DNA of 64,000 nt from Marinitoga sp. 38H-ov (lineage in GTDB: Bacteria > Thermotogota > Thermotogae > Petrotogales > Petrotogaceae), in assembly GCF_011057715.1 (NCBI RefSeq), contig NZ_LNGH01000053.1, positions 1-64,000 on the forward strand, in the 5' to 3' direction. Of the stretch, positions 26,326-45,950 are shown one piece after another. The notes below the pieces were generated by a model. That model was not told the DNA's origin, ran no database searches, and saw only the letters and a list, made by a program, of their open reading frames with translations. Position 1 is the first letter of the stretch. Each line of letters starts with the position of its first letter. The position numbers and the translations under genes are program-made.

Positions 26326-26330
26326 TAAAT

Positions 26331-27911: not shown

Positions 27912-27927
27912 TGGTTTTCTCCTAAAA
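27892..27927. terminator. Bidirectional terminator between convergent HD-GYP and receiver genes
   Basis: A perfect 16-bp inverted repeat (left arm 27892-27907, right arm 27912-27927) that begins and ends in T/A runs and contains both stop codons. It serves both convergent genes. Confidence 0.9.
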
Positions 27928-28326: not shown

Positions 28327-28329
28327 AAC

Positions 28330-29637
28330 TTATTCCTCCTTTATTTTAGGAATTTTTAATATAAATTTAGTTCCTTTGTTTACTTCGCTTTCGACATTAA
28401 TTTCTATTTTATGTTTTAAACATATATTATATACAAAGAACAAACCGTATCCCATACCATGTTTTGATTTAGTAGTGAAAAATGGTTCGAAAATACGTTT
28501 AATATTTTCTTTAGGAATCCCCTCGCCGTTGTCCTCAATAGTAACATTATAAAATGTAGAAAGTTTCATAACGTTAATATTTATAAATCCATTTTTTCTA
28601 TCTCCTATAGCTTCTATAGCATTTTCTATCAAGTTTGAAAAAACAATCATTAACTCCTGTTTATTTCCTTTAATATAAAATGGGGGATTACATGTTGTAT
28701 TAAAATTAATAGAAATATTAGAAGGAGCTTTATATCTCATAAATTTTATAACGTCTTTTAAAACATCATATAAATCAATTTTTGTTTGAGAAGTTTCGCC
28801 TTTTACTAATGATTTAAATAGACCTGTAATTTCAATTATTCTATATACATTTTCTACAATACTTTTTACATAAGGTTGGTATTTTTCATCAATTATATTA
28901 TTTAGCATTTCAGACTTCATTAAAACAATAGATAGTGGATTATTTATTTCGTGAAACATTCCTACAATTAGATTATTAGCAATTTCAAGGTATTCAAATA
29001 CATTTGTGCCGTTTCTTTTTGAGTAGGTGTTATAAATATTTTCTATATGTTTTGATAAAACTTCTATAGAATTATTTACTAAAGGTACAATATTTAAAGG
29101 TATATTAGATGTTAATTCATAATAATAAACATTATTAAAAAGCTCAAAGTAATAACTACTAAATTCATTTTTTGATATTTTTGAAATAAAGTCATTGTTT
29201 TTTATTAAATCAAAAAAATTTTCTTCTAATTCTTTTTTTGACAAATATTGTATAGAAAACAAAAAAGTAAAAGAGTTATTATAGAAATCTATTAGAGAGT
29301 ATAAGTATTTAAGTTTTGTATTTATATTTATTTCTGTTAGGTATTCTTTTGTTTTGGGATATAGTTCTATCATAAATTCTTCGCTGGAAATAGGATGAAT
29401 ATTAATAGTAAAATAATTTTCACTCTTTAATATTTTCTTAGATTTTCTTTCTGAAAAATATAGAGTTGAATTATTTTCAATAAAACTTTTAATCATAGAT
29501 ATATAGGAATGATTAACTAAATCAAAAAAATTTTTTTCATGGAAAAATGAATCAAAAGAAAAATTGCTATTTAATATATTTCCATCTTTATCAATTATAG
29601 CAATTGGAATTCTCAAACTATTTATATCAATCTTCAT
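28330..29637 (-). CDS. Soluble PAS-like histidine kinase
   Basis: Sensor kinase of about 435 residues with no transmembrane segment. The N-terminus looks like a PAS domain (IAIIDKDGNILNSNFSFDSFF). A long helical region follows, then a HisKA-type phospho-acceptor site (GMFHEINNPLS), an N-box (NLIENAIEAI), G1 (EDNGEGIP), an F-box (FEPFFTTK) and G2 (GMGYGLF). It appears fully active. The ATG at 29637 follows GAGGGAG and lies within the end of the CheX-like gene; the downstream receiver is its likely target. Confidence 0.9.
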   Translation of the reverse strand: MKIDINSLRIPIAIIDKDGNILNSNFSFDSFFHEKNFFDLVNHSYISMIKSFIENNSTLYFSERKSKKILKSENYFTINIHPISSEEFMIELYPKTKEYLTEININTKLKYLYSLIDFYNNSFTFLFSIQYLSKKELEENFFDLIKNNDFISKISKNEFSSYYFELFNNVYYYELTSNIPLNIVPLVNNSIEVLSKHIENIYNTYSKRNGTNVFEYLEIANNLIVGMFHEINNPLSIVLMKSEMLNNIIDEKYQPYVKSIVENVYRIIEITGLFKSLVKGETSQTKIDLYDVLKDVIKFMRYKAPSNISINFNTTCNPPFYIKGNKQELMIVFSNLIENAIEAIGDRKNGFININVMKLSTFYNVTIEDNGEGIPKENIKRIFEPFFTTKSKHGMGYGLFFVYNICLKHKIEINVESEVNKGTKFILKIPKIKEE

Positions 29638-30124
29638 TTTTAACTCCCTCTTTAAATGCAAATAATAGATATCCGGAAATATTTTCAGATTTTATTTCAA
29701 ATTTTATAGTAATACCATTTATTATATCATTTTTAATTTCTGAGAATTTATGCAAAATAGGTGGGGTAAAGGATAAATCCTTTTCATTTTCGGCAATAAT
29801 GCTAATTACATTTCCACAAATAATATTCCCAATTTCCAAAAAAGAATCTAAAACATCTTCTGGCTGAATATTTTCTATATTATTAAAATTTTCTACTAAA
29901 CCTAAAAATTTTAAAAAGTCAGAGGATAATAATGTGAAATAGAAATTCCAGATTTTATTTTCGCTCTTAGCTGATTGAGTCATAATGTAGTAATTTTTAT
30001 TTATTATTTCATTTAATTTTATTTCTTTGGAATTATTTGGATACATTTTAATATCAATTCCAGTTAACTCTTTTAATATGACCTCGGATTTTTTAATTCC
30101 TCTTTCGATAATTTTATTTATCAT
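29627..30124 (-). CDS. cheX: CheX/CheC-like phosphatase
   Basis: 165-residue protein of the CheX type, which dephosphorylates CheY-P. The signature helix carries the catalytic pair: LEIGNIICGNVISII contains the E-x-x-N pattern. The N-terminal GIKKSEVILKELTGIDIKM and the later ITIKFEIKSENISGYLLFAF also fit the family fold. The ATG follows GAGGTG. First gene of a divergent operon facing the chemosensory operon, followed by a kinase and a receiver. Overall similarity is moderate, so the subfamily (CheX rather than CheC) is a judgement. Confidence 0.75.
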   Translation of the reverse strand: MINKIIERGIKKSEVILKELTGIDIKMYPNNSKEIKLNEIINKNYYIMTQSAKSENKIWNFYFTLLSSDFLKFLGLVENFNNIENIQPEDVLDSFLEIGNIICGNVISIIAENEKDLSFTPPILHKFSEIKNDIINGITIKFEIKSENISGYLLFAFKEGVKNED

Positions 30125-30155
30125 TTTAAACACCTCTAGAATTATCTTCAATATT

Positions 30156-30256: not shown

Positions 30257-31294
30257 ATGAATGTTAAAGAAATGTTGTTTTCAGATAACATAAAGGATAG
30301 ATTAATATCAATTGAATATATAGCGGAAAATAAATTGAACGGATATGCCAAAGATCTATTTTCCTTATTAAAATATGAAAAAGATTTAATGGTTCAAGAG
30401 GCAATAATAAATACTTTAAAACACCTTGAATTAGAAAAAGTGCCTGATGAAATATTTTTAGAACTATTATTAAATGAAGAATTACTATTAAAAGAGTTTG
30501 CTTTATCACTTTTAAGTATAAATAAAAGAATAAATATTTTAGGAAAACTATTGGAAAATGAAGATAAAGATATTAGAAAATATGCTTTAGACGGATTGTA
30601 TAGAACCAATGATAAAGAAGCAATAAAATATATAGCAAAATGTTTAGATGATCAAGATATAAATAATCAAATTGCAGCAATTGAATATTTGGGATTATTA
30701 GGCGCAAAAGAGTATTCTGAAAAAATAGCAAATATATTGCAAAGAACAAATAATCAATTTTTATTGACAACTATATTAGAAACATTGTCTTTAATTGGAG
30801 ATGATAAATCAGATAATATAGTAAAAGAAAAAATAAATGATTTTAAAAAGGTACATCTAATAATTCCTTTTGCAAAATATGTTTTTAAAAGAAGTAATGT
30901 TTTTGAGAGTATAGATTTTTTTGAGAATTGTGAATATAAACATTTGATAATAAAGGAATTTTTAGATTATCTATACAAAAATCATAAGAAAATATATCCA
31001 TATACAAAATTAAAAAATAAAGTAATAAAGGAATTAATAGAATTATTGAAATATAAAGAATATATATATGATATTTTAACCTTAATAAACTTATTAGACC
31101 AGGATGAGATAGATAAAATAATTTTAGAAAATATAAATGAATTAAATTCTGAGGGTATTATTGCAGTAATAGAAATAATAAACGAAAGAAAGTTAAAATC
31201 TTTTAAAGACATTCTCCAAAAAATAAAAAATAAATTTTCAGATGAAATAAAAATGATTATAGAAGAAACAATAATGGAGATGGAAACATGGTAG
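30257..31294 (+). CDS. HEAT-repeat protein, first gene of the chemosensory operon
   Basis: 345-residue all-helical protein built of HEAT/PBS-like repeats, clearest at ALKHLELEKVPDEIFLELLL, DKDIRKYALDGLYRTNDKEAIKYIAKCL and INNQIAAIEYLGLLGAKEYSEKIA (each the start of a repeat). No catalytic motif, signal or membrane segment. Such solenoids act as protein-binding scaffolds, and HEAT proteins occur in other non-standard chemosensory operons. Its 3' end overlaps cheR by seven bases. The binding partner is unknown; a CheA/CheR-linked scaffold is my inference. Confidence 0.8.
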   Translation: MNVKEMLFSDNIKDRLISIEYIAENKLNGYAKDLFSLLKYEKDLMVQEAIINTLKHLELEKVPDEIFLELLLNEELLLKEFALSLLSINKRINILGKLLENEDKDIRKYALDGLYRTNDKEAIKYIAKCLDDQDINNQIAAIEYLGLLGAKEYSEKIANILQRTNNQFLLTTILETLSLIGDDKSDNIVKEKINDFKKVHLIIPFAKYVFKRSNVFESIDFFENCEYKHLIIKEFLDYLYKNHKKIYPYTKLKNKVIKELIELLKYKEYIYDILTLINLLDQDEIDKIILENINELNSEGIIAVIEIINERKLKSFKDILQKIKNKFSDEIKMIIEETIMEMETW

Positions 31295-32124
31295 AAAGTT
31301 ACAAAAAAATACGCGATTATATATATGAAAAAACAGGAATATATATAGAAGAAAAAAGATTATATTTTTTTAAAAATAGAGTTTTTAGAAGAATGAAAAA
31401 GATAGGAATAGATGATCCAGACACATACTATAATTTTTTAGTAAATGGAGAATATTCAGAAAATGAATTAGTAAAATTAATTAGCGAAATAACAGTTAAT
31501 GAAACATATTTTTTTAGAGAATTTCCTCAATTGAAATCTTTTGCAGAATATGCATTAAAAGATGTAATAAGTAGAAAAAATAATAAAACAATAAAAGTAT
31601 TATCAGCGGGATGTGCATCTGGCGAAGAACCATATACATTATCCATTATATTAGAAGAAATGTTAGATGGAGAATTTAATTATAAAATTGATGCATTTGA
31701 TATAGATCCTATAATGATATTAAAAGCAAAAGCTGGAATATATAATGATTATGCAGTAAGAGATGTACCTAAAGAATATTTAAATAAATATTTTGAAAAA
31801 GATAAAGAGAATTATAAAATAAAGGATATTATAAAAAATAAGGTTAATATATTTAATTTAAATTTAATCGAAGATAATACATATGAAAAATTAGATGATA
31901 ATTATGATTTTATATTCTGCAGAAATGTATTCATATATTTTTCTGATGAAATTAGAAAAAAGATAATCACGAAGTTTTATACAATTTTAAATGAAGGTGG
32001 ATATATATTTTTAGGTCATTCTGAATCAATAAATAGAATAACTAATGCATTTAAAGTTGTAAAAGCAAATGATTTTATACTATACCAAAAACCATGGAAT
32101 AAGGGAGGTAATGTGAATGCATAA
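31288..32124 (+). CDS. cheR: CheR: chemoreceptor glutamate methyltransferase
   Basis: SAM-dependent methylation of receptor glutamates for adaptation. 278 residues: an N-terminal helical domain, the TVNETYFFREFPQ motif, the SAM site LSAGCASGEEPYTLS, the acidic FDIDP, and the catalytic-domain block FCRNVFIYF followed by LGHSES. No TPR extension. It overlaps the HEAT gene and the receiver gene, so expression is coupled. The obvious substrate is the double-tip receptor encoded at 36842. Confidence 0.95.
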   Translation: MVESYKKIRDYIYEKTGIYIEEKRLYFFKNRVFRRMKKIGIDDPDTYYNFLVNGEYSENELVKLISEITVNETYFFREFPQLKSFAEYALKDVISRKNNKTIKVLSAGCASGEEPYTLSIILEEMLDGEFNYKIDAFDIDPIMILKAKAGIYNDYAVRDVPKEYLNKYFEKDKENYKIKDIIKNKVNIFNLNLIEDNTYEKLDDNYDFIFCRNVFIYFSDEIRKKIITKFYTILNEGGYIFLGHSESINRITNAFKVVKANDFILYQKPWNKGGNVNA

Positions 32125-32488
32125 AATATTAATAATAGATGACTCTAAAATGACAAGAAGTTACCATGCCAGTATATTAAAAGCTGCTGGATTTGAAGTA
32201 ATTGAAGCAGAAGATGGCGCAAAAGCTTTAGATGTATTATACAGAGAAGAAGGTATAGATTTAATATTAACAGATTTAAATATGCCTAATTTAGATGGTT
32301 ATACTATGATAAAAAAGATTAGGGAAGATGAGAATTATAAAGATATACCAATAATAATAGTAACAACATTAGATAAATCTACTAATAAAATGAAAGGATT
32401 TGAGGTCGGAGCTAATTTTTACATAGTTAAACCATCAGATCCAGAATCATTAATTGAAAGTGTTAAAATAGCTCTTGGAGTGGATTAA
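32117..32488 (+). CDS. cheY: CheY-like single-domain response regulator
   Basis: 123-residue receiver with the acidic pair in ILIIDDSKMTRS, phospho-acceptor Asp in ILTDLNMPNLDGY, Thr in IVTTLD and Lys in IVKPSDPESL. Immediately precedes cheA and overlaps cheR. It could act as a diffusible output or as a phosphate sink; the HD-GYP protein of the operon has no receiver of its own, so one of the operon's two receivers may relay to it. Confidence 0.92.
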   Translation: MHKILIIDDSKMTRSYHASILKAAGFEVIEAEDGAKALDVLYREEGIDLILTDLNMPNLDGYTMIKKIREDENYKDIPIIIVTTLDKSTNKMKGFEVGANFYIVKPSDPESLIESVKIALGVD

Positions 32489-32489
32489 A

Positions 32490-34355
32490 ATGAAAATGCA
32501 TTTTGATAAAGAGTTTATCGATGGATTAATGAGAGACTTTTTTGCTGAAGCTGAAGAAAGTATAAACACCATCGAGGTTAATTTAGTGAACTTAGAAGAA
32601 ACAGGTGATTTAAATCTAATAAATTCAATAATGAGAGGGTTCCATAGTCTTAAAGGAACATCTAGGTTGCTTTTGTCTATGGATATTCCTGAGAGATTTG
32701 TAGAAAAAACAAAAAAAATAGAGGAGCTTTCACATAAATTAGAAGATTTATCTTTAAGTATATCAGGAAAAGATGATAAGAATATAGATTTATTATATGA
32801 TGGATTAGATTTGATAAAAAAAATTTTAAAATCATATAAAGATGATACTGTTGTAGATGTAAAAGAATTTTTAAATAATACTAAAAATATTAATATAGAA
32901 AAGAAAACAGATATTAATGAAGTTACTAAAAAGATGTTAATTAATTTAAAGGATCAATTTTTTGAATATTTAATTAATTCTGAAAATTATAATTTATCTC
33001 AATTAAATAGAATGAGAAAACCTATTAAAAATATATTGAAAAAAATGGGAAATGAAAAATTATCAAATAAATTTAATGAAATAATAAAATATGTTGAAAG
33101 TAATAATAAAACTGAATTAAAAAAGGCTATAAAAGAATTTGATGATATATTATATAATAAAAAAACAAATGAAATTAGTAAAATAGAATTTTCTGATACG
33201 CTTAGAGTAGACATAAAAAAAATAAATAATATATTGAATTTAGTTGGAGAGCTAATAATAGTAAAAAATACTTCAACATATTTACTAAAAGAATTATATA
33301 AAGTATCCCCGGATTTGTATAAAGAGTTTATTCATGTTTTTTCTAATTTAAATAAGATAACAATTAATATTCAAGATCAAATTTTAAGTTTAAAAATGGT
33401 TCCAATTAAAGAATTATTATACAAATACAAAAGATTAATAAGAGAATTGGCTAAAGAAAAAAACAAGAAAATAATATATGAATTTACTGGAGAAAATATA
33501 GAATTAGATAGAATATTAATAGAAAATATATCAGATCCTTTAACTCATATTATAAGAAATTCTATTGATCACGGTATTGAAGAAGTTGAGGAAAGGAGAA
33601 AAATTGGTAAAAATGAAGAAGGATTAATAAAGATAAATGCATATTATGAAAGTGGATATGTATATATAGAAATTATTGATGATGGTAGAGGAATTGATAT
33701 AGAAAAAATAAAAGAAAAAGCTAAAAAATTAGGATGGAACATAGATATACCTGATGAAGAAATTATTAATTATATATTTGGGTCTGGGTTTAGCACTTCT
33801 AAAGAAGTGACTGAAATCTCCGGTCGTGGTGTAGGTATGGATATAGTAAAGAATAATATTGAAAAGTTAAATGGAAAAGTGTTTGTAGAAACTAAAAAAA
33901 ATCAAGGGACAAAAATAACATTAAAAATTCCTAACTCAATTTTAAACATAAATGGCATAATGGTGTTAGTTGATAATGAAAGGTATATATTACCATTTGA
34001 AGAAGTATATAAAATTATTAAGGTAAAAAAAGATAAAATACATAATTATTCTAATAAATTATTTGTTGAATATAATGATGAAATAATTCCTTTTTTTGAT
34101 TTAAAAGGAATACTAAAAAACAGAGAATATTCTTTTGATGATATTTTAAATAGAGAATATAAATATGATTTGGTGTCATTATTATTGATAGATGATGGAA
34201 TTTCTGCAGTGTTAGTAGATGAAGTATTAGAGGAAAATGAATATTTAGTAAAACCATTACCGGAGTACTTGAAACATGACTTTCTATATGGTTCAACAAT
34301 ATTAGGAAATGGAGATATTGTATTAATACTCAAACCATCTGGATTGGTGATATAA
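32490..34355 (+). CDS. cheA: CheA histidine kinase
   Basis: Core kinase of the array, about 621 residues. P1 with phospho-acceptor His52 in GFHSLKGTSR; a helical linker region at about 130-225 where a normal P2 is not recognisable; P3 dimerisation around LRVDIKKINNILNLVGELI; P4 ATPase with N-box THIIRNSIDHGIE (near 350), DDGRGID (near 395) and GRGVGMDIV (near 445); then a C-terminal CheW-like P5. The ATG at 32490 follows GGAGTGG at the end of cheY. Its stop codon overlaps the parA start by one base. All catalytic motifs are intact. Confidence 0.95.
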   Translation: MKMHFDKEFIDGLMRDFFAEAEESINTIEVNLVNLEETGDLNLINSIMRGFHSLKGTSRLLLSMDIPERFVEKTKKIEELSHKLEDLSLSISGKDDKNIDLLYDGLDLIKKILKSYKDDTVVDVKEFLNNTKNINIEKKTDINEVTKKMLINLKDQFFEYLINSENYNLSQLNRMRKPIKNILKKMGNEKLSNKFNEIIKYVESNNKTELKKAIKEFDDILYNKKTNEISKIEFSDTLRVDIKKINNILNLVGELIIVKNTSTYLLKELYKVSPDLYKEFIHVFSNLNKITINIQDQILSLKMVPIKELLYKYKRLIRELAKEKNKKIIYEFTGENIELDRILIENISDPLTHIIRNSIDHGIEEVEERRKIGKNEEGLIKINAYYESGYVYIEIIDDGRGIDIEKIKEKAKKLGWNIDIPDEEIINYIFGSGFSTSKEVTEISGRGVGMDIVKNNIEKLNGKVFVETKKNQGTKITLKIPNSILNINGIMVLVDNERYILPFEEVYKIIKVKKDKIHNYSNKLFVEYNDEIIPFFDLKGILKNREYSFDDILNREYKYDLVSLLLIDDGISAVLVDEVLEENEYLVKPLPEYLKHDFLYGSTILGNGDIVLILKPSGLVI

Positions 34356-35107
34356 TGGCAAAAGTAATCGTTTTTGCAAATAGAAAAGGTGGAAGCGGAA
34401 AAACAACATTAGCATTTAATTTAGCAAATATATTTAAAAACTCGCTGTTAATAGATTTTGATTCTCAGGCACATTCTACAGTATATGCAGGAATTAATCC
34501 ATTTGAAGTAAAATATGGAATATATGAGATGATTATTGATTATTTAAATACTGGGAAGTATAAGGATAAAAAATTAAATGTTCATAATATAGATATTATT
34601 CCGTCTAATCAAAATTTATCAGCATTAGAAGTTGAATTAGCCCATTATAATGAAAGGAATTTTGTATTAAAAGACTTTTTAATAGATTTTCATAATAAAT
34701 ATGATTATATTTTCATTGATACACCACCAAGTTTAGGATTACTAACAATTAACGCTTTAAATGCTTCTGATTACCTACTAATTCCAGTAAAAAGTGATTT
34801 CCTATCTCTTGTTGGGCTATCTCAAATGATGGAAATATACTATAAGGTAAATATAGAAAATCCTAGTTTAAAATTCTTAGGTGTTATTCCAACTATGGTT
34901 GATAAAAGAACAAAAATATCTAAAGAAATATTAGATGAACTAAATAAGATTTTTGGTGAAAAAAAAGTATTAACTGCGCTTAGAAATGATGTAAAACTTA
35001 TAGAATCATCAAGTCATGGAATTCCAATAAATAAATATTCACCTAAATCAAGAGCAGCAATTGATATAAAAAAGATAGCTAAAGAAATTCAGGAGTTGAT
35101 TAAATGA
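34355..35107 (+). CDS. ParA-like positioning ATPase of the chemosensory operon
   Basis: 250-residue MinD/ParA-family ATPase with deviant Walker A NRKGGSGKTT (signature Lys11), LLIDFDSQAHST, Walker B-like FIDTPPSLGLL and SDFLSLVGLSQ. ParA proteins pattern on the nucleoid and move cargo that carries an activator. Relatives within chemotaxis operons (PpfA of Rhodobacter sphaeroides, ParC of Vibrio) position chemoreceptor arrays. Here the gene is wedged between cheA and a tiny gene whose product carries a ParB-like ParA-activating peptide, with one- and four-base overlaps. I infer that it segregates the cytoplasmic array; it is not a chromosomal or plasmid ParA, as no parB with a DNA-binding domain follows. 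Confidence 0.9.
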   Translation: MAKVIVFANRKGGSGKTTLAFNLANIFKNSLLIDFDSQAHSTVYAGINPFEVKYGIYEMIIDYLNTGKYKDKKLNVHNIDIIPSNQNLSALEVELAHYNERNFVLKDFLIDFHNKYDYIFIDTPPSLGLLTINALNASDYLLIPVKSDFLSLVGLSQMMEIYYKVNIENPSLKFLGVIPTMVDKRTKISKEILDELNKIFGEKKVLTALRNDVKLIESSSHGIPINKYSPKSRAAIDIKKIAKEIQELIK

Positions 35108-35394
35108 AAATCCTTGGCCGTGGTTTAGATACATTTTTTAATTCCGATAATTTATTTAAAAAGGCTTTAGAACTCGATGATAAAGGAAATATATTTTTTG
35201 CTTTTCATTATTATTTGAAAGCTGCTGAAACTAATGAAGATATAAAATCAAAAGCTTTAAATAATGCTGCAGTTATTTTAGCGGAAAATGGATTTGAAAA
35301 AGAAGCAATAGATTTATTAAAAAAATCTTTAGAATCAAATCCCGATAACAAGGAAGCAAAAGAAAACCTCGAGTATTTGGAGGGACTACTTTGA
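35104..35394 (+). CDS. Small TPR protein with ParB-like ParA-activating N-terminus
   Basis: 96 residues. The N-terminus MKILGRGLDTFF matches the LGRGLDALF/LGKGLxAL peptide found at the start of ParB/Spo0J, which contacts ParA and triggers ATP hydrolysis. The rest is helical with about two TPR units (about 18-90: KALELDDKGNIFFAFHYYLK and AAVILAENGFEKEAIDLLKK). No DNA-binding or CTPase part of ParB is present. It overlaps parA by the ATGA junction and the hsp70 gene by four bases. The likely role is an adaptor that links ParA to the receptor array, or to the Hsp70 made by the next gene. The peptide match is direct; the role is inferred. Confidence 0.85.
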   Translation: MKILGRGLDTFFNSDNLFKKALELDDKGNIFFAFHYYLKAAETNEDIKSKALNNAAVILAENGFEKEAIDLLKKSLESNPDNKEAKENLEYLEGLL

Positions 35395-36812
35395 TAGTTG
35401 GAATAGATTTTGGTACAACGAATTCTTTAATTGCAAATTCTGAAATATTTATTAATGAAAGAGGTAGTAGAATAACACCTTCAATAGTTTTTTTTAGAAA
35501 TAACAATGAAGTTTTAGTTGGAGATTTAGCTAAATCTCAAATGTATATTAGACCAGATAAAGTTATATTAAATGTAAAAAGGGATCTTGGAAAAGGTAAA
35601 GAGTATATTATTAATAATGAAAAATTTAAAGCAGAAGAAATAGCGAGTTTTATTTTTAAGAAATTAAAAAATATAGTAAATGAAGAAATTTCAAGTGCTG
35701 TAATTACTGTGCCAGCATATTTTGATGACAATCAAAGAAACGGTGTATTAGAAGCGGCTTCTATAGCTGGTTTGGATGTTGTAAAGCTCCTAAATGAACC
35801 AGTTGCAGCAGCTATTGGATATGGAATAAATATAGAAAACAAAAAAATATTAGTTTTAGATTTTGGCGGGGGAACATTTGATATTACGCTAATGGAAATA
35901 AAGGACGATGTTTTTAATGTATTAAAAACGGGAGGTAGTTCAGAATTAGGTGGAATAGATTTCGATAATATATTAGTTAATTGGATTGTAAATACGGTAA
36001 AAGAAAAAGATGGAATAGATTTAAATGTAGATCCAGTTGCACTTCAGCAATTATATATTCATGCTGAAAACGCTAAAATAGATTTATCTGTTGTTGAAAA
36101 TACTGATATTATCATTCCATATATTGCTACCTTAAATAATAGACCATATCATTTAAACTTAAATATAAATAGAGATATTTTTTTAAGTATATCAAAAGGA
36201 TTAATAGAAAAAATAGAAAAATTAATATTGGAAGTTGCTAATGAAGAAATAGATGAAATAATATTTGTAGGAGGGTCTTCTAGATTATTCTTTTTAAAAG
36301 AATTAGTAAAAAAGATTTTCCCTGATAAAAAGATAATATCAGATTTAAACCCTGAAGAGATTGTAGTTAAAGGAGCAGGATTATATGCTCAGGTATTAGA
36401 AGGAAAAATAAATAATATTTTACTTAGAGATATATTACCTCATTCTTTAGGAGTATTAGATGATGAAGGTAATTTTATAGAAATACTAAAAAGTGGAATT
36501 CATTATCCATCATCGGAAACAGAAATTTTCACTAATACTAAAGATAATCAAGATACTATTATTATTAAAGTTTTACAGAAGAAAAATGATGAAATGATTA
36601 ATCTTGGTGATTTTGAATTTAAATTTTCTAAAAAATGGAAAAAAAATGAAGCGAGAATAGCGGTTAATTTTTCACTTAATATAAACGGATTATTAGAAAT
36701 TACTGCAGAGGATTTAAATACGGGACAAAGTTTAAAGGGAAAAATTACCAATGCTATGGTGAATAGAAAGAGTATAAATAAAGATTTTATAAATAATTAT
36801 AAGATAATATAA
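35391..36812 (+). CDS. Lidless DnaK/Hsp70-like chaperone in the chemosensory operon
   Basis: 473-residue Hsp70 homologue. The actin-type ATPase covers about 1-350: GIDFGTTNS, VPAYFDDNQRNG, LNEPVAAAIGYG, LDFGGGTFDITL, IIFVGGSSRL. A linker-like LLRDILPHSLG leads to a beta substrate-binding domain to about 460 (SETEIFTNTKDNQDTIIIKV, INGLLEITAEDLNTG). The helical lid of DnaK (normally about 100 further residues) is missing. It starts at a TTG behind GGAGGG and overlaps the TPR gene. No dnaJ or grpE is adjacent, so this is not the housekeeping DnaK locus. It may fold or gather receptor, CheA or CheW, with the TPR protein as co-chaperone; that is inference. Confidence 0.9.
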   Translation: MIVGIDFGTTNSLIANSEIFINERGSRITPSIVFFRNNNEVLVGDLAKSQMYIRPDKVILNVKRDLGKGKEYIINNEKFKAEEIASFIFKKLKNIVNEEISSAVITVPAYFDDNQRNGVLEAASIAGLDVVKLLNEPVAAAIGYGINIENKKILVLDFGGGTFDITLMEIKDDVFNVLKTGGSSELGGIDFDNILVNWIVNTVKEKDGIDLNVDPVALQQLYIHAENAKIDLSVVENTDIIIPYIATLNNRPYHLNLNINRDIFLSISKGLIEKIEKLILEVANEEIDEIIFVGGSSRLFFLKELVKKIFPDKKIISDLNPEEIVVKGAGLYAQVLEGKINNILLRDILPHSLGVLDDEGNFIEILKSGIHYPSSETEIFTNTKDNQDTIIIKVLQKKNDEMINLGDFEFKFSKKWKKNEARIAVNFSLNINGLLEITAEDLNTGQSLKGKITNAMVNRKSINKDFINNYKII

Positions 36813-36841
36813 ATAACTGGTTAATATAAGGGGGAATTTAA

Positions 36842-38776
36842 ATGGAAGAAAAAAAATTGCTTTCTCCGGAGTCGCAAAAAACACCAGGAATAATGAAAAT
36901 TAAAGATGAAGAATTAAGAAAGAAAAGAGAAGAAGCAAGACAAAAAGCTATTGAAAGAGCTAAAAGACAAACTATACTAAAAAGGCAAGTAATAGCAGAA
37001 AATTTAACATCTTCATCTGAGGAATTATTAGCTGCTGTTGAGCAAATAAGTTCTAGCGTTGAAGAATTATCAAAGTCTATGATGCAAATAAGTTCTGGAG
37101 CAGAACAAATATCTAATTCTATTCATGAAATTAGAGCTGCAATATATCAAATAAATAAGAATTCTGATGGAATAAAAAAAGAGTCAAGAGATATATTATA
37201 TGAAACAGATAAATCTCAAGTACAAATATTACAATCAATAAATAGCGTAGATATGTTAATTAATTCTGTAAATAAAAGTATTGAATTTAATAAAGATACA
37301 AATTCCAATATCTTAGAATTAAAGGAAAAATCTCAAAAAATATCAGATATTATCAATTCTGTCTTATTAATTGCTGATCAAACAAATCTTTTGTCATTAA
37401 ATGCGGCAATTGAAGCTGCAAGAGCAGAAGAATATGGTGTTGGATTTGCTGTGGTAGCTGATGAAATTAGAAATCTTGCAGAAACTTCAGAAATAAATGC
37501 AAAAAATATTGAGGAAAGCATAAAAAATCTAAAAAGTAGTATGGATTATGTTATAAATGATGTTGAAAAATTAAATATATATTTTGAAGAACAAGGAAAA
37601 TTAGGCGATGAAATTAATAAGGAATTTAATGATATAAAAAATACATTTGATGCTATCAAAAATAATGTAAACAAAGAAATAAAAATAATAGAAGAATTTT
37701 CTGAAATATCAGAAAAATATTTAGCTTCCGCTGAAAATGTTGTATCTTTTTCAGAACAAGTTGCAAAAGAATCAGAAGATATATCTAAAGCATTACAGGA
37801 AGAGGAACAAGCATTTATTCAAATTTCTCAAGCATCTCAAAATTTAGTAGATATTTCAGAAAAAATATTAAACTCTACTGAAGATAAAGATTCATTATTA
37901 CAATTATCCTCATCAATTGATGAAATGTTTAGTATTATAGAAGAAGCATATAATGGTTCTGAGAATATAAAATATCATTTAGAACAATTAGAAAAAATTT
38001 CTTCAGTATTCGCTGAAGAAATGGATAATATGATTAATTTAGTTTCAAAATTTTCTGAATTATCAAAAGAATTATTGGATATTAATAAAAATGATAAAGA
38101 CACAATAATTACAATATTAAATAATATAAAAGAAAGTAAATCAAAAGTAAATACTTTAATTGATAGTATAAATAGCACAAATGATGGATTTTCGGAAATA
38201 TATAAAAATATAAAAAAATTATCCACAAACTTCAAATTAATAAATAATAGTATATCTAAAATTGAAAAAATATCTATTCAAATTAATATGTTAGCTGTAA
38301 ACGGGTTTATAGAATCTGCTAGAGCTGGTGAGTATGGTAATGGTTTTTATGTAGTTTCTAATGATATAAGAGAATTATCGAAAACTTCTGAAGAAAATTT
38401 AGAGTCTATAAAAAATGTGATAGAAGAGATTGATGAAAATATAAAAATATCCGAAGAAAATGTATATGAAAATCAAAAAAGGACATATTCAGAATTAATA
38501 GAAGCAAATTCAGCGGTTAATGCCATTAAAGAAATTCAAAAAAATATAGAAGAATTATTAAATAAATATAAAACAGTTTCGCACTCTATTTCAGAAATTG
38601 TCATAGCTATTGAACAATCTAAAAAGGCAGTAGAACAGTCACAAAGTGCTGTTGAAGAATCTTTTGCTTCAATAGAAGAGGCTTCAAAAGCTTCTATTGA
38701 ACATGAAAGAGGTATAAATGAAATGCTAAAGGTTGTAAAAGAAATTATGAATCAATCAAATGATCTACAATTATAA
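36842..38776 (+). CDS. Soluble chemoreceptor with two MCP signalling tips (DosM-like)
   Basis: 644 residues, no signal peptide or transmembrane segment, almost entirely coiled coil. Two separate MCP hairpin tips are visible: the first near 176-215 ([31 protein letters not shown]) is canonical; the second near 477-515 ([31 protein letters not shown]) is diverged. About 300 residues lie between them. This is the layout of DosM of Vibrio cholerae, which bridges the two CheA/CheW layers of cytoplasmic arrays. The N-terminus is charged ([17 protein letters not shown]) with no recognised sensor domain. No CheR-binding pentapeptide at the C-terminus (NDLQL). Third quarter of the operon, between hsp70 and the triple CheW gene. 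Confidence 0.92.
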
Positions 38777-38789
38777 TGAGGGTGTATAT

Positions 38790-40268
38790 ATGAATTATAT
38801 AATATTTTCATTAAACGAACAAGAATATTGTATTCCAATGAATGAGATAAGAGAAATTGTGGATTTAAAAAAAATCACTAAAATTCCATTAGCTCCTGAT
38901 TATGTTGAAGGTTTAATAAACCTAAGAGGAGAAATTATCCCAGTAATTAATTTAAAAACAAAACTGGGATTAAAGAGTAATTACAATTCAAAAATTATAA
39001 TTTTGAATAATAATATAGGAATATTAGTTGATTCTATAAACGGAATTTTAAGCAAATTCGATGAAAAAATAGAAACAAAATCAAAATATGTTAATTCGGT
39101 TATAAAAAATGGGGAAAATGAATATTTTTTATTAGACATTAATAAATTAATTGAAGTAAATAACAAAAAAATTCAAAGCACAATAAATAGAAAAAAAATA
39201 AAGAAACAAAATAAAAAGATTAAAATGAAAAAGATTATTACTTTTAAAGTAAATGGCGAGATATATGGATTTGAAATAAATCAAATTTTTGAAATAATCA
39301 ATTATTTTGAACCTAACAAAGTTCCAATTAATCAGGATTGTGTAAAAGGAATTATTTCTGAAAGAGGAGAAGTTATACCTGTAATTGATCTTAAGAAATT
39401 ATTATATAATATAGATTCGAAAATTAACAAAAAAACGAAAATAGCTATTATAGATGTTGATGGATATAATATTGGTGTAATAGTAGAAGAAATTCATAGA
39501 ATAGTTGAAGTAGAAAAAATAAAAGAATTTCCATATAAAAATTTATTAAAAGGATATATAAAAACAAAAGATTTTTCTGCTGTAATATTAGATATAAATA
39601 ATGTATTGAATGATGAAATTAAATTTTTGAATAAAAAGAGTGTAAAAGTTCAAAAAGATAAAGTGAAAAAGGATAAATATTTATTATTTAATATAAATAA
39701 TGAAAAGTATGCATTAGAATTGAAATTAGTTAAAGAAATAAATAGGTTAAATAAAATAACAAAAGTACCTTATTCATCATACGTTCGAGGGATAAGTAAT
39801 TTAAGGGGAAATATATTACCAATAATTGATTTAAAAAAGAGGTTAGGATTCGAAGAAATAAAAAATAAATTTTCAAGGGTTATAGTTTCTAATATAGATA
39901 ACCAATTAATAGGGTTTTTAGTAGATTCTGTAAATAACATAATATCTATGGAATATATTCAATTTAAATCAAGCGATAAATTTATTAAAGGTATAGGTAA
40001 ATATAATAATGAATCTGTATTATTAATAGATTTAAATAAAATAGTTGATAAAGAAGAATTAAAAAGATTAAATGAATCTATTTATAATTCAAAAACTGAT
40101 AATTCAAAAATTGATAAAACAAAACTTGATAAAACTATTACTGATAAAACAAGACCTAATAAATCAAGAACAGATAATTTAAATGATAAACCTATTAAAG
40201 AAAAAGAGGAAACAAAAACAATTAGAAAAGAAAAAATTAAAAATATAAAATTAAAGAGATCGAGGTGA
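38790..40268 (+). CDS. Triple CheW-domain coupling protein with basic repetitive tail
   Basis: About 492 residues made of three consecutive CheW domains at about 1-130, 148-280 and 292-425. Each has the pattern of a first strand (NYIIFSLNEQEYCIP; KIITFKVNGEIYGFE; KYLLFNINNEKYALE) and the central turn (GLINLRGEIIPVINLK; GIISERGEVIPVIDLK; GISNLRGNILPIIDLK). The second domain has ERGE in place of LRGE. A Lys-rich tail (about 430-492) holds repeats of the type SKTDN-SKIDKTKLDKTITDK and ends KLKRSR. It would link CheA to receptor tips, and three domains could seed CheW rings. The ATG at 38790 follows GAGGGTG. The basic tail might touch nucleoid or membrane; this is speculation. Confidence 0.92.
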   Translation: MNYIIFSLNEQEYCIPMNEIREIVDLKKITKIPLAPDYVEGLINLRGEIIPVINLKTKLGLKSNYNSKIIILNNNIGILVDSINGILSKFDEKIETKSKYVNSVIKNGENEYFLLDINKLIEVNNKKIQSTINRKKIKKQNKKIKMKKIITFKVNGEIYGFEINQIFEIINYFEPNKVPINQDCVKGIISERGEVIPVIDLKKLLYNIDSKINKKTKIAIIDVDGYNIGVIVEEIHRIVEVEKIKEFPYKNLLKGYIKTKDFSAVILDINNVLNDEIKFLNKKSVKVQKDKVKKDKYLLFNINNEKYALELKLVKEINRLNKITKVPYSSYVRGISNLRGNILPIIDLKKRLGFEEIKNKFSRVIVSNIDNQLIGFLVDSVNNIISMEYIQFKSSDKFIKGIGKYNNESVLLIDLNKIVDKEELKRLNESIYNSKTDNSKIDKTKLDKTITDKTRPNKSRTDNLNDKPIKEKEETKTIRKEKIKNIKLKRSR

Positions 40269-41332
40269 TTCTTATTCCAGAAATAAATGTTTTAATTGCA
40301 GATGATTCTCCTTTGACAAGAAAAATTCTAAAAGCATTAATAGAATCAGATAAAAGTTTAAGGATAATAGGGGTTGCAAGAGATGGAATTGAAGCTGTTG
40401 AAAAAGCAAATAAACTAAACCCTGATGTTATAATAATGGATATAAAAATGCCAAATATGGATGGTTTAACGGCGTTACAGTATATATTAGAAGAAAAAAA
40501 TATACCTGTTATTGTTGTATCGTCACTGGGTGAAAAATCATCTATAATAGCATATGAAGCTCTTGAATTAGGTGCATTTGATTATATTGAAAAACCAGAT
40601 GATTTATATTATCTAAAAGATGAATTGATAAAAAAAATTCATGCAGCTTATATATTTTCACAATCAGAAGAAGCAAAAAAAGAATTTTTCTCTGAAAAAG
40701 ACATTTCATACCAACCTAAAGAAAAAAAGGAAACTGAAACAAATATTGAAATGGATTTCTATGGAGTTACTATTGGTATTTCAACAGGTGGGCCAAGAGA
40801 GATTTATGATGTTTTGCCGAAATTTCCAGCAAATTTAAATGCAGCAATTTTTTTAGTTCAGCATATACCTGAAAAATTTACAAAAACTTATGCAGAAAGG
40901 TTAAATAACAGTTGCGAATTAAAGGTTGTTGAAGCGGAAAATGATATGGATGTTAAACCAGGATATGTTTATGTTGGTAAAGGCGGTTATCATTTAAAAT
41001 TAAGAAAAGGATTAAATGGCCTTAAGATAATGTTATCAAAAACACCAAGAACTATATTCATGCCATCAGCGGATATTTTAATGGAATCTGTTTTAGAACA
41101 TTTTAATAATAAAACTATAGGTGTGTTAATGACAGGTATGGGCGATGATGGTGCAAAGGCAATGGTAAAAATAAAAGAAAATAATGGTTATACTATAGCA
41201 GAATCCGAAGAAACAGCAGTTGTTTTTGGAATGCCAGCTGAAGCCATTAGATTAGGTGGTGCAAATATAGTTTTACCATCTTATATGATAGCGAATGAAG
41301 TTATTGAGAAAGTTGGATTGAGAAATGGATAA
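40265..41332 (+). CDS. cheB: CheB: receptor methylesterase
   Basis: Removes methyl groups from receptors. Receiver at about 1-118 (LIADDSPLTRK, IIMDIKMPNMDG, VSSLG, IEKP), then an esterase domain from about 165 with Ser in GISTGGP, His in VQHIPEKFT and Asp in TGMGDDGAKAM, a complete triad. The listed start is a GTG that overlaps the previous stop as GTGA, but this GTG lies inside the ribosome binding site GAGGTGAT. ATT at 40274, four bases after that site, would give the normal (M)PEINVLIADDS start and may be the true one. It overlaps the next gene by eight bases. Confidence 0.93.
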   Translation: MILIPEINVLIADDSPLTRKILKALIESDKSLRIIGVARDGIEAVEKANKLNPDVIIMDIKMPNMDGLTALQYILEEKNIPVIVVSSLGEKSSIIAYEALELGAFDYIEKPDDLYYLKDELIKKIHAAYIFSQSEEAKKEFFSEKDISYQPKEKKETETNIEMDFYGVTIGISTGGPREIYDVLPKFPANLNAAIFLVQHIPEKFTKTYAERLNNSCELKVVEAENDMDVKPGYVYVGKGGYHLKLRKGLNGLKIMLSKTPRTIFMPSADILMESVLEHFNNKTIGVLMTGMGDDGAKAMVKIKENNGYTIAESEETAVVFGMPAEAIRLGGANIVLPSYMIANEVIEKVGLRNG

Positions 41333-42461
41333 GAGTTATGAAGAATTAATGGCATTAAAAGATGAATTAGAAGAAGCCTATAAACAATTAGAACAATCAT
41401 ATAATGAACTGGAAGAATTGAATAATAGATTTGTTAGAGTAACAGATTTAATTACAAATATATCTATGGATATATCAATGGAATCATTTTTTGGAAAATT
41501 GTTATCTTATTTTGTAGAATTAATACCACAAATTTCATATGGATGTGTTTTGGAAAAAGAAGGGGATTTTTTTAGATTTGTAGCGACTTTAGGGCATAGC
41601 AAAAAATTATTATTAGATACTGCTATAATAACTAAAGAATTTAATGAGATAAAAGAGATAAATAACTTTTACTGTAATTATATAAAAAATTATAATGTGT
41701 TAAAAGAAAAGATAATAAAGTCTAATAAGAGTTTAATAATTCCATTGAAAACATTCGAATTACATGGATATATAATATTAGATTTAAAAGATAGAGATAT
41801 AAAAAAAACTGAAAAAGATTTAATTAATGTTATGGGGAAAATAGCTTCAACATTTTTAGTTTCAAAAATATTGTATAATGAACAAAATAAATTTTTAAAA
41901 AACACGGCATTTGCCTTTTTAAAGGCTGTTGATTTTTATGATCCATATACAAAAGGCCATTCTGAAAGAGTTTCATATTATGCTACCACACTTGCAAAAA
42001 TAATTGGAAGAGAAGATATTATTAATGATATTTTCGTTGCAAGTACCTTGCATGATATAGGTAAATTATCAATTCCTCAAAGTATATTATTAAAAAAAGA
42101 AAGATTAAATAATGAAGAATTTGAAAAAATAAAAGAACATCCTGTTAGAGGAGAGGAATTAGTAAAGACCTTTAAGGGTTTTGAAAAAATAGGGAAAATA
42201 ATTAGGCATCATCATGAAAGATGTGATGGAAAAGGTTATCCAGATGGATTATCTGATAAAGAGATACCTTTGGAATCAAGAATAATAACAATTGTGGATG
42301 CTTTTGATGCAATGACAACAGCAAGACCATATAGGGACGCTTTATCAGTTGAAGAAGCAATTAATGAGCTTATTAATAACAAAGGTAAGCAATTTGATCC
42401 TATACTAACAGATGAATTTATAAAATTTATTAAACTTAATAAATTTTTCAAGGAGGAATGA
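41325..42461 (+). CDS. HD-GYP phosphodiesterase of the chemosensory operon
   Basis: 378-residue soluble protein: coiled coil at about 1-45 (ELMALKDELEEAYKQLEQSY), a GAF-like domain to about 180 (FRFVATLGHSKKLLL, related to the GHD module of other proteins here), and HD-GYP at about 190-375. The active site is fully canonical: KGHSERVSYYA, LHDIGKLSIP near 241, KEHPVRGEEL, RHHHERCDGKGYPDG and VDAFDAM. It should hydrolyse cyclic-di-GMP. It begins inside cheB, so it is co-produced with the array; it has no receiver, so input must come through the GAF domain or partner contact. The most likely enzymatic output of the operon. Confidence 0.92.
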   Translation: MDKSYEELMALKDELEEAYKQLEQSYNELEELNNRFVRVTDLITNISMDISMESFFGKLLSYFVELIPQISYGCVLEKEGDFFRFVATLGHSKKLLLDTAIITKEFNEIKEINNFYCNYIKNYNVLKEKIIKSNKSLIIPLKTFELHGYIILDLKDRDIKKTEKDLINVMGKIASTFLVSKILYNEQNKFLKNTAFAFLKAVDFYDPYTKGHSERVSYYATTLAKIIGREDIINDIFVASTLHDIGKLSIPQSILLKKERLNNEEFEKIKEHPVRGEELVKTFKGFEKIGKIIRHHHERCDGKGYPDGLSDKEIPLESRIITIVDAFDAMTTARPYRDALSVEEAINELINNKGKQFDPILTDEFIKFIKLNKFFKEE

Positions 42462-42463
42462 TT

Positions 42464-42856
42464 ATGGGCAAAATATTAGTAGTAGATGATGATAATGTTA
42501 TTAGAACGGTATTAAAAAAGGTTTTGGAAAGTGAAAAGTATAATGTAGATGTAGCTGAAGGTGGGAATAAGGCAATAGAATTAATAAAAAATACAGAATA
42601 TGATGTAATATTGCTTGATATTATAATGGAAGATTTAGACGGTATTGAAGTATTAAGAAAAGCAAAAAAATTATCACCATTAACAACAGTTATTATGATG
42701 ACAGCATATTCAAGTCCAGACTATGTTTTACATGCATTAACTTTAGGAGCAACAGATTTTGTAGAAAAGCCTTTTGAACCTGAAAATATGATTAAATTAG
42801 TAAAAGAAAATGTTGAAAGAGTAAAAAGGTGGAAGAAAACTTTAGGACTTCTTTGA
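42464..42856 (+). CDS. Single-domain response regulator
   Basis: About 130 residues: ILVVDDDNVIR, phospho-acceptor Asp in ILLDIIMEDLDG, Thr in MMTAYS, Lys in VEKPFEPEN. It ends in a basic tail (ENVERVKRWKKTL) like that of the receiver at 27922. The ATG at 42464 has AAGGAGG at good distance; the ATG two codons upstream is too close to it. Placed directly behind the HD-GYP gene, with a degenerate kinase gene following, it may carry phosphate from CheA to either. Confidence 0.9.
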   Translation: MGKILVVDDDNVIRTVLKKVLESEKYNVDVAEGGNKAIELIKNTEYDVILLDIIMEDLDGIEVLRKAKKLSPLTTVIMMTAYSSPDYVLHALTLGATDFVEKPFEPENMIKLVKENVERVKRWKKTLGLL

Positions 42857-42865
42857 GGTGTTAAT

Positions 42866-44218
42866 ATGAGTTTTATATCTAATCTTAATTTTGAAGAATT
42901 TAATGATTATATAAACTTAATATTCAATAAAACATTAGAGACTTTAAAAGCTGATTCGGGATCTTTAATTATATTTGATGATGATAAAAATATTATTTTT
43001 AAAATAATGAAAAATTTAGAAATTGATATTAATAATATAAAACCGGGAAAAATAGATGAGATGTTTATTAATTCTAAAAATCCAATAATTATTAATAATG
43101 AAGATCTTGAAAAAAAAGGGATCTTACCTAAAAAAAAGGATACTATATCTTCAATAGTATTTCCTATGTATTTTAAGAATAAATTAATTGGAGTTATGAA
43201 TTTAAATAGAAAATCTGTTAAATTTACTTTAGACGACTTAAAAAAATTAAACGATAATAAAATTTTTCTTATGCCATCAATATATAATATTATTTTACTA
43301 GAAGAAGTTCATGATGAAAGAGAGAGATTTAAAAAATATTTAAATGTTTTTGAGTTGATAGTAGAAAAATATTCAACTGCAAATACGGTTATAGATTTTA
43401 TAAATGAAACAATTAATGAAATCAGAAGAAAATATAAAATTAAAATTAATATTGAAACAGTAGATGAACCAGATGAAAATACAATAAAAATTAAAAATTT
43501 GTATTATAAATTTGATGTGGAATATAGTAAAGATGAAGATATAGTAAATAAACTAAAATCTTTTATGATGAAAATGACAGTTATAAAACATGTAGAGGAA
43601 TTAAATAAAGTTTTAAGTGAGTATTCTGATCTTGCAAAAGAAACATTATTGATGAATTTTATGTCTTGGGATTTAATTCAAGAAATAAATAGTGCAATTA
43701 CAGGGATAAATTTAATAACCTTTTTCTTTGAATCTACAAACCCAGAAATTTCAAATGAATTAAAAAAATCTATAAATAGAATCAAGGAAGCGGTTGAGAG
43801 ATATAAATCAAATTTTTATAATAATGAATCAATTGAATTAATTGATATATCAAATGTTGTTAAAGAAGTAGAAAATAAAATCAAATTTCTTAACCCGGAT
43901 ATTAGTTTTACTACAAGAATTAAATATAATGCAACAATATATGGATCAAGAAAGATACTTTTTAATTCTTTAATGAATATAGTTGTGTCTGTATTGAAAT
44001 ATACGTCTAATAGAAAATTTAATGTTGAATTATATCACGAGGAAAGTTATTATTATTTAAAGATTGAAACTAAAATAAATTCATCAGAAATAAATAATAG
44101 AGAGTTGAAAAAAGCAATTAATATTTCTTCAACTATGTTGAGTAATTATCATATAGATTTTCTACAAAAAACAAATAAAGAAAATACAGATTTTATATTA
44201 CAAATACCAGCAAAATAA
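42866..44218 (+). CDS. GAF-domain protein with degenerate histidine-kinase core
   Basis: 450-residue soluble protein. A GAF domain covers about 10-155 (KADSGSLIIFDDDKNIIF, ISSIVFPMYFKNKLIGVMNL). A helical segment near 265-290 (FMSWDLIQEINSAITGI) lies where a HisKA helix would have HEINNPL; the phospho-acceptor His is absent. The C-terminal part resembles an ATPase lid-less fold (GSRKILFNSLMNIVVSVLKY at the N-box position) but lacks the Asn of the N-box and both glycine boxes. I read it as a pseudokinase that keeps dimerisation and binding roles. It could bind the preceding receiver; this is inference. ATG follows GAGGTG. Confidence 0.72.
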   Translation: MSFISNLNFEEFNDYINLIFNKTLETLKADSGSLIIFDDDKNIIFKIMKNLEIDINNIKPGKIDEMFINSKNPIIINNEDLEKKGILPKKKDTISSIVFPMYFKNKLIGVMNLNRKSVKFTLDDLKKLNDNKIFLMPSIYNIILLEEVHDERERFKKYLNVFELIVEKYSTANTVIDFINETINEIRRKYKIKINIETVDEPDENTIKIKNLYYKFDVEYSKDEDIVNKLKSFMMKMTVIKHVEELNKVLSEYSDLAKETLLMNFMSWDLIQEINSAITGINLITFFFESTNPEISNELKKSINRIKEAVERYKSNFYNNESIELIDISNVVKEVENKIKFLNPDISFTTRIKYNATIYGSRKILFNSLMNIVVSVLKYTSNRKFNVELYHEESYYYLKIETKINSSEINNRELKKAINISSTMLSNYHIDFLQKTNKENTDFILQIPAK

Positions 44219-44226
44219 ATGGGGTG

Positions 44227-45921
44227 ATGGAAATTTTTAATTTGGAGATAATAAAAAGATCTATAAATATTTTTTCAAGAACATTATTTCAAAATAAAGA
44301 AGTATTTATAGGTCTTGCTGTAAATTTAGAAGGAACAAGTTTTTTAAATATATTTACATTTGATAATTTAAATAAAGAATATTTAGAATATTCTGAAGAT
44401 GTTGTATTTGAAGTTCCTCAAAAAATGTATGATGTATTTGAAGAGAAAAGAGAATCAAATTTTAAAGTATCATTTTCAAATGAATTTACTTTTTTAATAA
44501 ATAATAGATTAGATAGATATAATATAAAAACATTTCTTTTGCCAGAAAAAGAGAAAAATTATGGTTTTTTATACATAATTTCTGTCGATGAAATAAAAAT
44601 TGATAACAGAGATGTTTTTTTGAGATTTTTATCGGTATTTGAAAAAAATATTGATGCTGTATATTTTGATAAATATTCTAAGTATTCTATAAACGCATTT
44701 GTAAAGAATTATTTGATGCTATTACAAAATCATTCTGAGATTTTGTATGAACATTCTATGAGAGTTGCTGATTTAACAAATATTATTGGAAGTTTATTAG
44801 GTATAGGTGAAGATAGTTTATATAAATTACAAATAGCCTCTTTTATACATGATATTGGATATATATGGTTTTCTGAAAAAACATTAGAAGAAACATTTTA
44901 TTCTCAGGATGAAGATGCAAAAGATCCATTGATAAGTGTACATTTAAAAAGATTAGAAGAAATGTTTTTTGGAAATGTTTTAATGAATCCATATGTTGAA
45001 TTAGCAATTAATCATCATGAAAATATGTCTGGAACAGGATATTTTAAGAAAAAAGATTTAACTATTGAAGATAATATTTTAATAATAGCAAATTATATTG
45101 ATGAAAATATAGTGTTATCCGGTAAAAATAGGATTGAAAGTATTGTTGAATTTTTGGAAAAAAACGCTGGGAAATTATATGATAAAAATGTAGCAAACGC
45201 TGCTATAGAAGCACTTAAAATTTACTATACAGAATTTGATAATGGGAAATACTTAGGGTTGACATTAAAATCGAAAACAATAAATTTAAGATATGAGGGG
45301 TTAGGAGAAGAATTAATAGAATTAACTGGAACTATTGAGAAGGTTATATCAGATACAATATATGTAAACGTAAGAACTATAGAACAAATAAATATTGGTT
45401 CTATTTTAAAGATAAAAATAACTACTAAAGATTTTCCATTAATAGCTAAGGCTCAAGTTATTCTAAAAAATCCATATGGTTATGTATTAAAGATTCTGGA
45501 AAGAAAAGAAACGAAAAAATCAAAGTTAAAGGTATTTTGGAATTTTGAATTTTATTTAGGATTAAAAAATGAAATAACTCCATTATTAAAAGAAAAATTA
45601 ACACCTATAATATTTAATATTATTAAATCAAAAATGAAAATTGCAAGATGTAAAGTATTTAGTGCAGAAGGTATTATTTTTTCAGTAGATATTGAAAATG
45701 ATATATTCAAGAAAGATGATGTAGTTATGCTATATATTGATCAGAATGGAGAAACTGTTTTTATTCCAGCAACTATATTATCAAAGAAAAAAGGATTATT
45801 TAATATAGAATATGAAGCTAAGTTTTTTGATTTGCCCGAAAGATTACAATCAGCAATATATAGAATGATATTTAGGAAACAATCTAATATTAGAACATTA
45901 GGTTCAATTAGAGAAATGTAA
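44227..45921 (+). CDS. Degenerate HD-GYP protein with possible PilZ-like C-terminus
   Basis: About 564 residues, last gene of the operon. An N-terminal domain (about 1-145) is unrecognised. An HD-GYP-like domain follows (about 150-345): EHSMRVADLTNI, FIHDIGYIWFS and INHHENMSGTGYF. Lys of HDIGK is Tyr, GYP is GYF, and the late metal Asp reads IANYID, so activity is doubtful. From about 360 the protein is beta-rich (IGSILKIKITTKDFPLIAKAQVI) and ends FDLPERLQSAIYRMIFRKQ, like the end of YcgR/PilZ proteins, though no RxxxR motif is seen. It may bind instead of cleave cyclic-di-GMP. Start unsure: the ATG at 44227 nearly touches GGGGTG; ATT at 44233 is better spaced. Confidence 0.7.
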   Translation: MEIFNLEIIKRSINIFSRTLFQNKEVFIGLAVNLEGTSFLNIFTFDNLNKEYLEYSEDVVFEVPQKMYDVFEEKRESNFKVSFSNEFTFLINNRLDRYNIKTFLLPEKEKNYGFLYIISVDEIKIDNRDVFLRFLSVFEKNIDAVYFDKYSKYSINAFVKNYLMLLQNHSEILYEHSMRVADLTNIIGSLLGIGEDSLYKLQIASFIHDIGYIWFSEKTLEETFYSQDEDAKDPLISVHLKRLEEMFFGNVLMNPYVELAINHHENMSGTGYFKKKDLTIEDNILIIANYIDENIVLSGKNRIESIVEFLEKNAGKLYDKNVANAAIEALKIYYTEFDNGKYLGLTLKSKTINLRYEGLGEELIELTGTIEKVISDTIYVNVRTIEQINIGSILKIKITTKDFPLIAKAQVILKNPYGYVLKILERKETKKSKLKVFWNFEFYLGLKNEITPLLKEKLTPIIFNIIKSKMKIARCKVFSAEGIIFSVDIENDIFKKDDVVMLYIDQNGETVFIPATILSKKKGLFNIEYEAKFFDLPERLQSAIYRMIFRKQSNIRTLGSIREM

Positions 45922-45950
45922 ATCCCCGATTATAAATCGGGGATTTTTTT
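45920..45950. terminator. Terminator of the chemosensory operon
   Basis: AAATCCCCGATT / AATCGGGGATTT stem with short loop and a run of seven T, right after the last gene. It also lies just beyond the end of the convergent permease gene and may serve both strands. Confidence 0.9.

Follow-up and report, generated by a model that had tools for sequence, protein, structure and literature searches.

The window analysed here comprises 64,000 nucleotides of the thermophilic bacterium Marinitoga sp. 38H-ov (positions 1 to 64,000 of contig NZ_LNGH01000053.1, which is 109 kb long and belongs to the 2.26 Mb Thermotogota genome G000) and carries a run of 14 open reading frames, all on the + strand, from 30257 to 45921. 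The run encodes the core of a soluble chemosensory array, a three-gene cassette of a ParA ATPase, a small tetratricopeptide repeat (TPR) protein and a lidless Hsp70, and, as elsewhere in this genus, closes with HD-GYP genes. A first-pass annotation of the window had proposed fourteen same-strand genes with overlaps or short gaps, and every frame was recovered in place, the 13 junctions extending from a 17-base overlap to a 29-base gap. Two starts were slightly corrected, that of cheA to 32490 rather than 32475 and that of the triple cheW to 38790 rather than 38760, each being a likely ATG with a GGAG/GAGG box. Pfam agrees with the gene list from the HEAT protein to the last HD-GYP protein, though the label ‘pseudokinase’ for gene 13 is weak. 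The proposed lack of transmembrane segments also stood: no convincing membrane helix was seen in the 14 proteins by hydropathy over 19-residue windows, which is not a dedicated predictor, and the highest score of any such window was 1.61, within the CheW domain of CheA. Ratios of nonsynonymous to synonymous substitution (dN/dS) against three congeners lie between 0.05 and 0.33 across the operon genes, indicating purifying selection on every gene, and a single, weak hairpin-like terminator match on the + strand was found inside the run.

The array core begins with a HEAT-repeat protein (30257–31294; Pfam HEAT_2, 2.7e-12), which is also the first gene in most relatives, followed by the methyltransferase CheR (31288–32124; CheR, 2e-54), a CheY-like receiver (32117–32488; Response_reg, 2e-28) and the kinase CheA (32490–34355), in which Pfam recognises one Hpt, the dimerisation, ATPase and CheW domains while the P2 region is unmatched. 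Beyond the cassette lie a soluble DosM-like receptor (36842–38776), a triple CheW protein, CheW3 (38790–40268; three CheW domains by Pfam), and the methylesterase CheB (40265–41332; Pfam). The receptor has two MCPsignal stretches with tip motifs at residues 191 and 491, and this spacing of 300 residues recurs in all receptors for which both motifs were scored, except for 301 in one. Beyond the two tips there is only a short tail, with no sensor or other domain by Pfam. A two-tip receptor and a triple CheW are architectures described as unique to the F9 class (PMC9321776), and since both are present here, and triple CheW proteins also occur in the operons of relatives, with cheA, cheY, cheB and cheR all in the one cluster, the core is F9-type by its sequence signature. 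The earlier claim of a DosM-like soluble array thus holds for the receptor and core, but it had overlooked the class signature. Full F9 clusters have been reported in 64 of 2781 species, and nearly all DosM homologues are said to miss a sensor domain, and extra sensory proteins are thought to be needed (PMC9321776). In Vibrio cholerae, F9 arrays are cytoplasmic and two-layered, with layers 35 nm apart and DosM spanning them (PMC7534058). No physiological role for F9 arrays is known in the portions of the open-licence literature consulted.

The cassette sits between cheA and the receptor gene. Its first gene (34355–35107; AAA_31, 9e-46) encodes a partition-type ParA ATPase, which aligns over its full length with Soj/ParA structures and keeps the deviant Walker A motif. 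The second (35104–35394) encodes a 96-residue protein with a TPR fold by profile and a ParB-type N-terminal peptide, LGRGLD, in which L-G-x-G-L does not vary among the orthologues that were aligned or read. The true ParB proteins of genomes that also carry the TPR gene have similar N-termini (GLGKGLEALI in Caldatribacterium, GLGRGLEALL in genome G168), but by Pfam the TPR protein is without the DNA-binding domain that a ParABS system would have in its ParB. Moreover, no ParB_N match was found in the window genome or in G058, the two Thermotogota tested, and these genomes therefore offer no chromosomal ParABS in which the peptide could act. Because neither genome has a ParB, it is likely that ParA works with the TPR protein alone and that the two position the array on the nucleoid. 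In the PpfA/TlpT system the ParB-like activator lies on the receptor N-terminus; LGxGL is absent from the receptor tail here. The suggestion of a ParA with a separate ParB-peptide adaptor in the first-pass annotation is thus upheld by the peptide and by the conservation of the operon.

The third cassette gene (35391–36812; HSP70, 2.7e-110) encodes nucleotide-binding and beta substrate domains and a short conserved tail. The match to DnaK stops near residue 450 of 473, so that the alpha-helical lid is absent, and at 398 bits the protein falls far below the DnaK name cut-off of 648. Cassette Hsp70 orthologues stand at approximately 50% identity or more, apart from DnaK at about 40%. The C-terminus (36780–36809, + strand), which follows a variable linker, is conserved across three phyla, often as ERRGxxLxV[ILF], with a shorter form, YKII, in the genus of the window. 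Of the whole system, the connection with Hsp70 is what surprises most and is least explained, its presumed role being either remodelling or stress input.

Our searches for the operon in relatives covered 103 Thermotogota genomes, 50 Atribacterota, 398 sampled Bacillota and, with the TPR alignment, 84,980 species genomes; as the TPR patterns were strict, the resulting counts are lower bounds. ParA orthologues were found in 9 of the 103 Thermotogota, representing seven genera and six families, and Hsp70 orthologues in 7, plus one more interrupted by the end of a contig. The TPR scan recovered the same operon in Candidatus Caldatribacterium (Atribacterota) and in HGW-Firmicutes-15, and the phylum searches added two Atribacterota (3/50 in total) and four Bacillota (5/398 in total). 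As far as the contigs extend, the order HEAT-CheR-CheY-CheA-ParA-TPR-Hsp70-MCP-CheW3-CheB recurs unchanged, some genomes showing it only in part at contig ends. The exceptions are G058, where the three cassette genes stand as a block in front of the operon, and the complete genome G039, which has no Hsp70 gene, nor any trace of one in the short gap, and keeps the rest. The neighbourhood search advised in the first-pass annotation found gene order conserved across three bacterial phyla: Thermotogota, Atribacterota and Bacillota.

The cassette behaves as a module. Within the genus of the window it is whole, lacking Hsp70 only (G039) or absent altogether (G040 and G041), and the core is kept throughout. 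G066 is likewise without it, cheA standing directly before the receptor gene. In G020–G022 there is no ParA or TPR gene, and a REC-GGDEF protein, its domain shown for G021, occupies the cassette slot. In the core-gene tree, G040 falls outside the group of G039 and the window's pair, and the cassette-less cases may be losses or the cassette-bearing cases gains. ParA and TPR genes were only ever found together, and Hsp70 was never found without the two. The dedicated Hsp70 claimed earlier is indeed encoded in the operon, but it is dispensable, as G039 demonstrates; because that genome keeps ParA and TPR, Hsp70 is not needed for ParA function.

The short receptor tail may record the presence of the cassette. 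In nearly all versions it starts with a K/R-L-x-x-P word, and a [TP]G[ILV] word comes next in all 15 cassette-bearing receptors read, including that of G039, and in none of 6 without the cassette (window 36842–36910; tails in L036–L088). A Fisher test on a stricter 14/15 tally gives 1e-4, for a motif picked after looking and among related genomes. The word is a lead for a docking site of ParA or the TPR protein rather than of Hsp70. In a column scan for cassette-tied residues, approximately 590 columns were conserved in carriers, and only CheA V492 and CheW3 V4 separated the two groups; this alignment-based scan did not recover the [TP]G[ILV] word, probably because the tail aligns poorly.

Four genes follow cheB. 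Gene 11 (41325–42461; HD_5, 3e-40) has intact HD, HH and GYP catalytic motifs and is a predicted cyclic-di-GMP phosphodiesterase, and gene 12 (42458–42856; Response_reg, 1.5e-32) is a stand-alone receiver. Gene 13 (42866–44218) encodes a GAF protein (GAF, 0.001) with a possible degenerate kinase C-terminus, for which there is a low-scoring but in-register profile alignment to the kinase ATPase domain and a poor single-sequence structure model (pLDDT 48); the proposed pseudokinase is thus weakly supported. The degenerate HD-GYP protein proposed for gene 14 (44224–45921; HD_5, 1e-9) fares reasonably well: the H, HD, H and HH residues are present, whereas the lysine of HDIGK, the proline of GYP and the leading aspartate of VDAFDA are missing. 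Its C-terminus is PilZ-like by a weak match (7e-5). Elsewhere the output genes vary. A REC-HD-GYP gene lies in the run of G082 and of Atribacterota, REC-GGDEF and a neighbouring HD-GYP are found in G020–G022, and in G055 and G058, as far as the contigs were read, the run has receiver and CheX-like genes but no HD-GYP. GGDEF proteins were present in all 22 genomes searched. A cyclic-di-GMP output is thus likely in much of Thermotogota and Atribacterota, though not universal, and its direction is not fixed. The earlier proposal that the system lowers cyclic-di-GMP accords with the HD-GYP genes in this genus, but such an output is lineage-specific: the Bacillota operons read have no HD-GYP in the run, and G020–G022 carry a REC-GGDEF synthase in the cassette slot.

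The best explanation of these data, to which we give a probability of roughly 0.6, is that the operon encodes an F9-type cytoplasmic array together with a cassette for its positioning and chaperoning. A soluble array would be built from the two-tip receptor, the triple CheW and CheA and tuned by CheR and CheB, with the array CheY probably dephosphorylated by CheX-like proteins. Lacking a sensor domain, the receptor must take its input from a bound partner. The TPR part of the adaptor may grip the array, perhaps at the N-terminal tail of the receptor, while its LGRGLD peptide would stimulate ParA, and nucleoid-bound ParA could then space the array or split it between daughter cells; such ParA-driven placement fits all the sequence evidence. 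By means of its substrate domain and conserved tail, the lidless Hsp70 probably attaches to components of the array and may assist in array assembly or remodelling. In the genus of the window, the probable targets of CheA are CheY and the stand-alone receiver, whose phosphorylation would control an HD-GYP enzyme that lowers cyclic-di-GMP.

Several points weigh against this interpretation. We infer all protein contacts, the placement on the nucleoid, the role of Hsp70 and the direction of the output from sequence. The ParA and TPR proteins of G039 are 88% identical to their counterparts despite the missing Hsp70. The Bacillota operons read have receiver and CheX-like genes and no HD-GYP in the run, L075 having one nearby. 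The tail-motif correlation is post hoc, in genomes that are not independent. The single-chain AlphaFold model of the receptor is all-helical and of high confidence, but it has a helix break at 345–348, midway between the tips, and compact bundles match it over residues 120–575, which would possibly allow both tips on one side and no two-layer array. The tips may also point in opposite ways, as in a dimeric rod and as two layers would have it: the high-Z structure matches are common long-helix arrangements, compatible with a rod and a fold-back alike, and a two-layer array is here an analogy with DosM.

A bolder version, in which ParA, the TPR adaptor and the lidless Hsp70 form one machine that pulls the array apart and shares it out at division, in what would be the first array with a dedicated Hsp70, is possible but tentative. 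Alternatively, Hsp70 could itself be the sensor: bound to the receptor, it would be drawn off by competing unfolded protein, CheA would switch, and the array would so read folding stress. The receptor without any sensor domain, the extra sensory proteins thought necessary for the mostly sensorless DosM proteins described (PMC9321776), and the retained beta substrate domain and conserved tail all suit this idea. We nonetheless consider it unlikely, since Hsp70 is absent from G039 and from every cassette-less relative, their cores being otherwise intact, and it was not seen without ParA and TPR, which ties it to placement more than to sensing.

An ordinary second chemotaxis system modulating only the flagellum would explain the retained CheY and the FlhA found in 17 of the 18 genomes searched, all of them carriers or near relatives. 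However, G082, which is 98% complete and lacks FlhA, keeps the operon with its REC-HD-GYP as its only CheA system, and therefore the output cannot be only flagellar there; with another CheA in most genomes and cyclic-di-GMP enzymes in the run or the slot, we regard this explanation as rather improbable. Finally, ParA is close to the chromosomal Soj/ParA proteins and might partition DNA, standing in the operon by accident. Its constant position within the che run across three phyla, its partner without a ParB DNA-binding domain, and the missing ParB in G000 and G058 make this very improbable.

Parts of this arrangement have counterparts in known systems. Cluster I (F9) of V. cholerae, with DosM and CheW3, shares the two-tip soluble sensorless receptor, triple CheW, CheA, CheR, CheB and cytoplasmic location, here predicted from sequence (PMC7534058, PMC9321776); no ParA, TPR adaptor or Hsp70 is mentioned with the DosM system in the available passages of these reports, whereas all three are present here. 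The Vibrio layer spacing of 35 nm compares with approximately 45 nm for the 300-residue tip spacing of the window receptor, if it is a straight rod. In Rhodobacter sphaeroides, the ParA homologue PpfA, whose gene accompanies that of a soluble receptor, TlpT, positions the cytoplasmic cluster on the nucleoid via the N-terminus of this receptor, to which ParB-like stimulation is ascribed (PMC3964821); in the present operon a separate TPR protein carries the peptide, and a dedicated Hsp70 is added. ParC of Vibrio (with ParP) and Halothiobacillus is likewise a ParA/MinD-family ATPase that places chemotaxis arrays, but it is polar, and no ParB-type TPR adaptor or Hsp70 is described with it in the sections available (PMC10241942). 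Bacterial DnaK shares the nucleotide-binding motifs and beta substrate domain with the cassette Hsp70, which misses the alpha lid and has an extra conserved C-terminal tail. Nothing relevant on Hsp70 or ParA with F9 arrays, or on Marinitoga chemoreceptors, was found in the open-licence literature, the supplementary gene-order tables of PMC9321776 lying outside that search; within this scope, an F9-type array with a ParA-TPR-Hsp70 cassette is a form that we did not find described.

The operon suggests that cells can actively position, and maybe remodel, their internal signalling bodies. Its conservation gives F9 arrays concrete partners in a nucleoid-type ATPase, a minimal ParB-peptide adaptor, an Hsp70 and cyclic-di-GMP enzymes, along with a possible non-flagellar output. 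The whole cassette, its Hsp70-less form and its absence form a natural series within one genus.

At the 3′ end of the operon, a strong 12-pair hairpin (45920–45946, no strand assigned) follows the last stop, between the operon and convergent sugar transporter genes, and is a probable terminator. Upstream, divergent genes on the – strand (27922–30151) encode a CheX-like protein, a histidine kinase and a receiver by Pfam. They adjoin the operon in G042, G039 and G040 and, broken by frameshifts, in G041, and probably belong with the 14-gene operon. Near them, beside an NAD synthase gene, lies a further HD-GYP protein (26322–27911).

Some minor observations concern the relatives. In L075 (16883–18388) the HEAT protein carries a fused N-terminal receiver, which hints that it is a phosphorylation-controlled partner. 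A second two-tip receptor lies downstream of the operon in G253 (L074:16706–18757), and the receptor gene is in two frames in G102 and G287 (L037:1042–3003, L073:10452–12306), through assembly error or a real break. Frameshifts break many operon genes in G041 (L084), probably reflecting uncorrected reads. The REC-GGDEF gene between CheA and the two-tip receptor is at L085:10055–11482, with similar receiver-led frames in L086 and L087.

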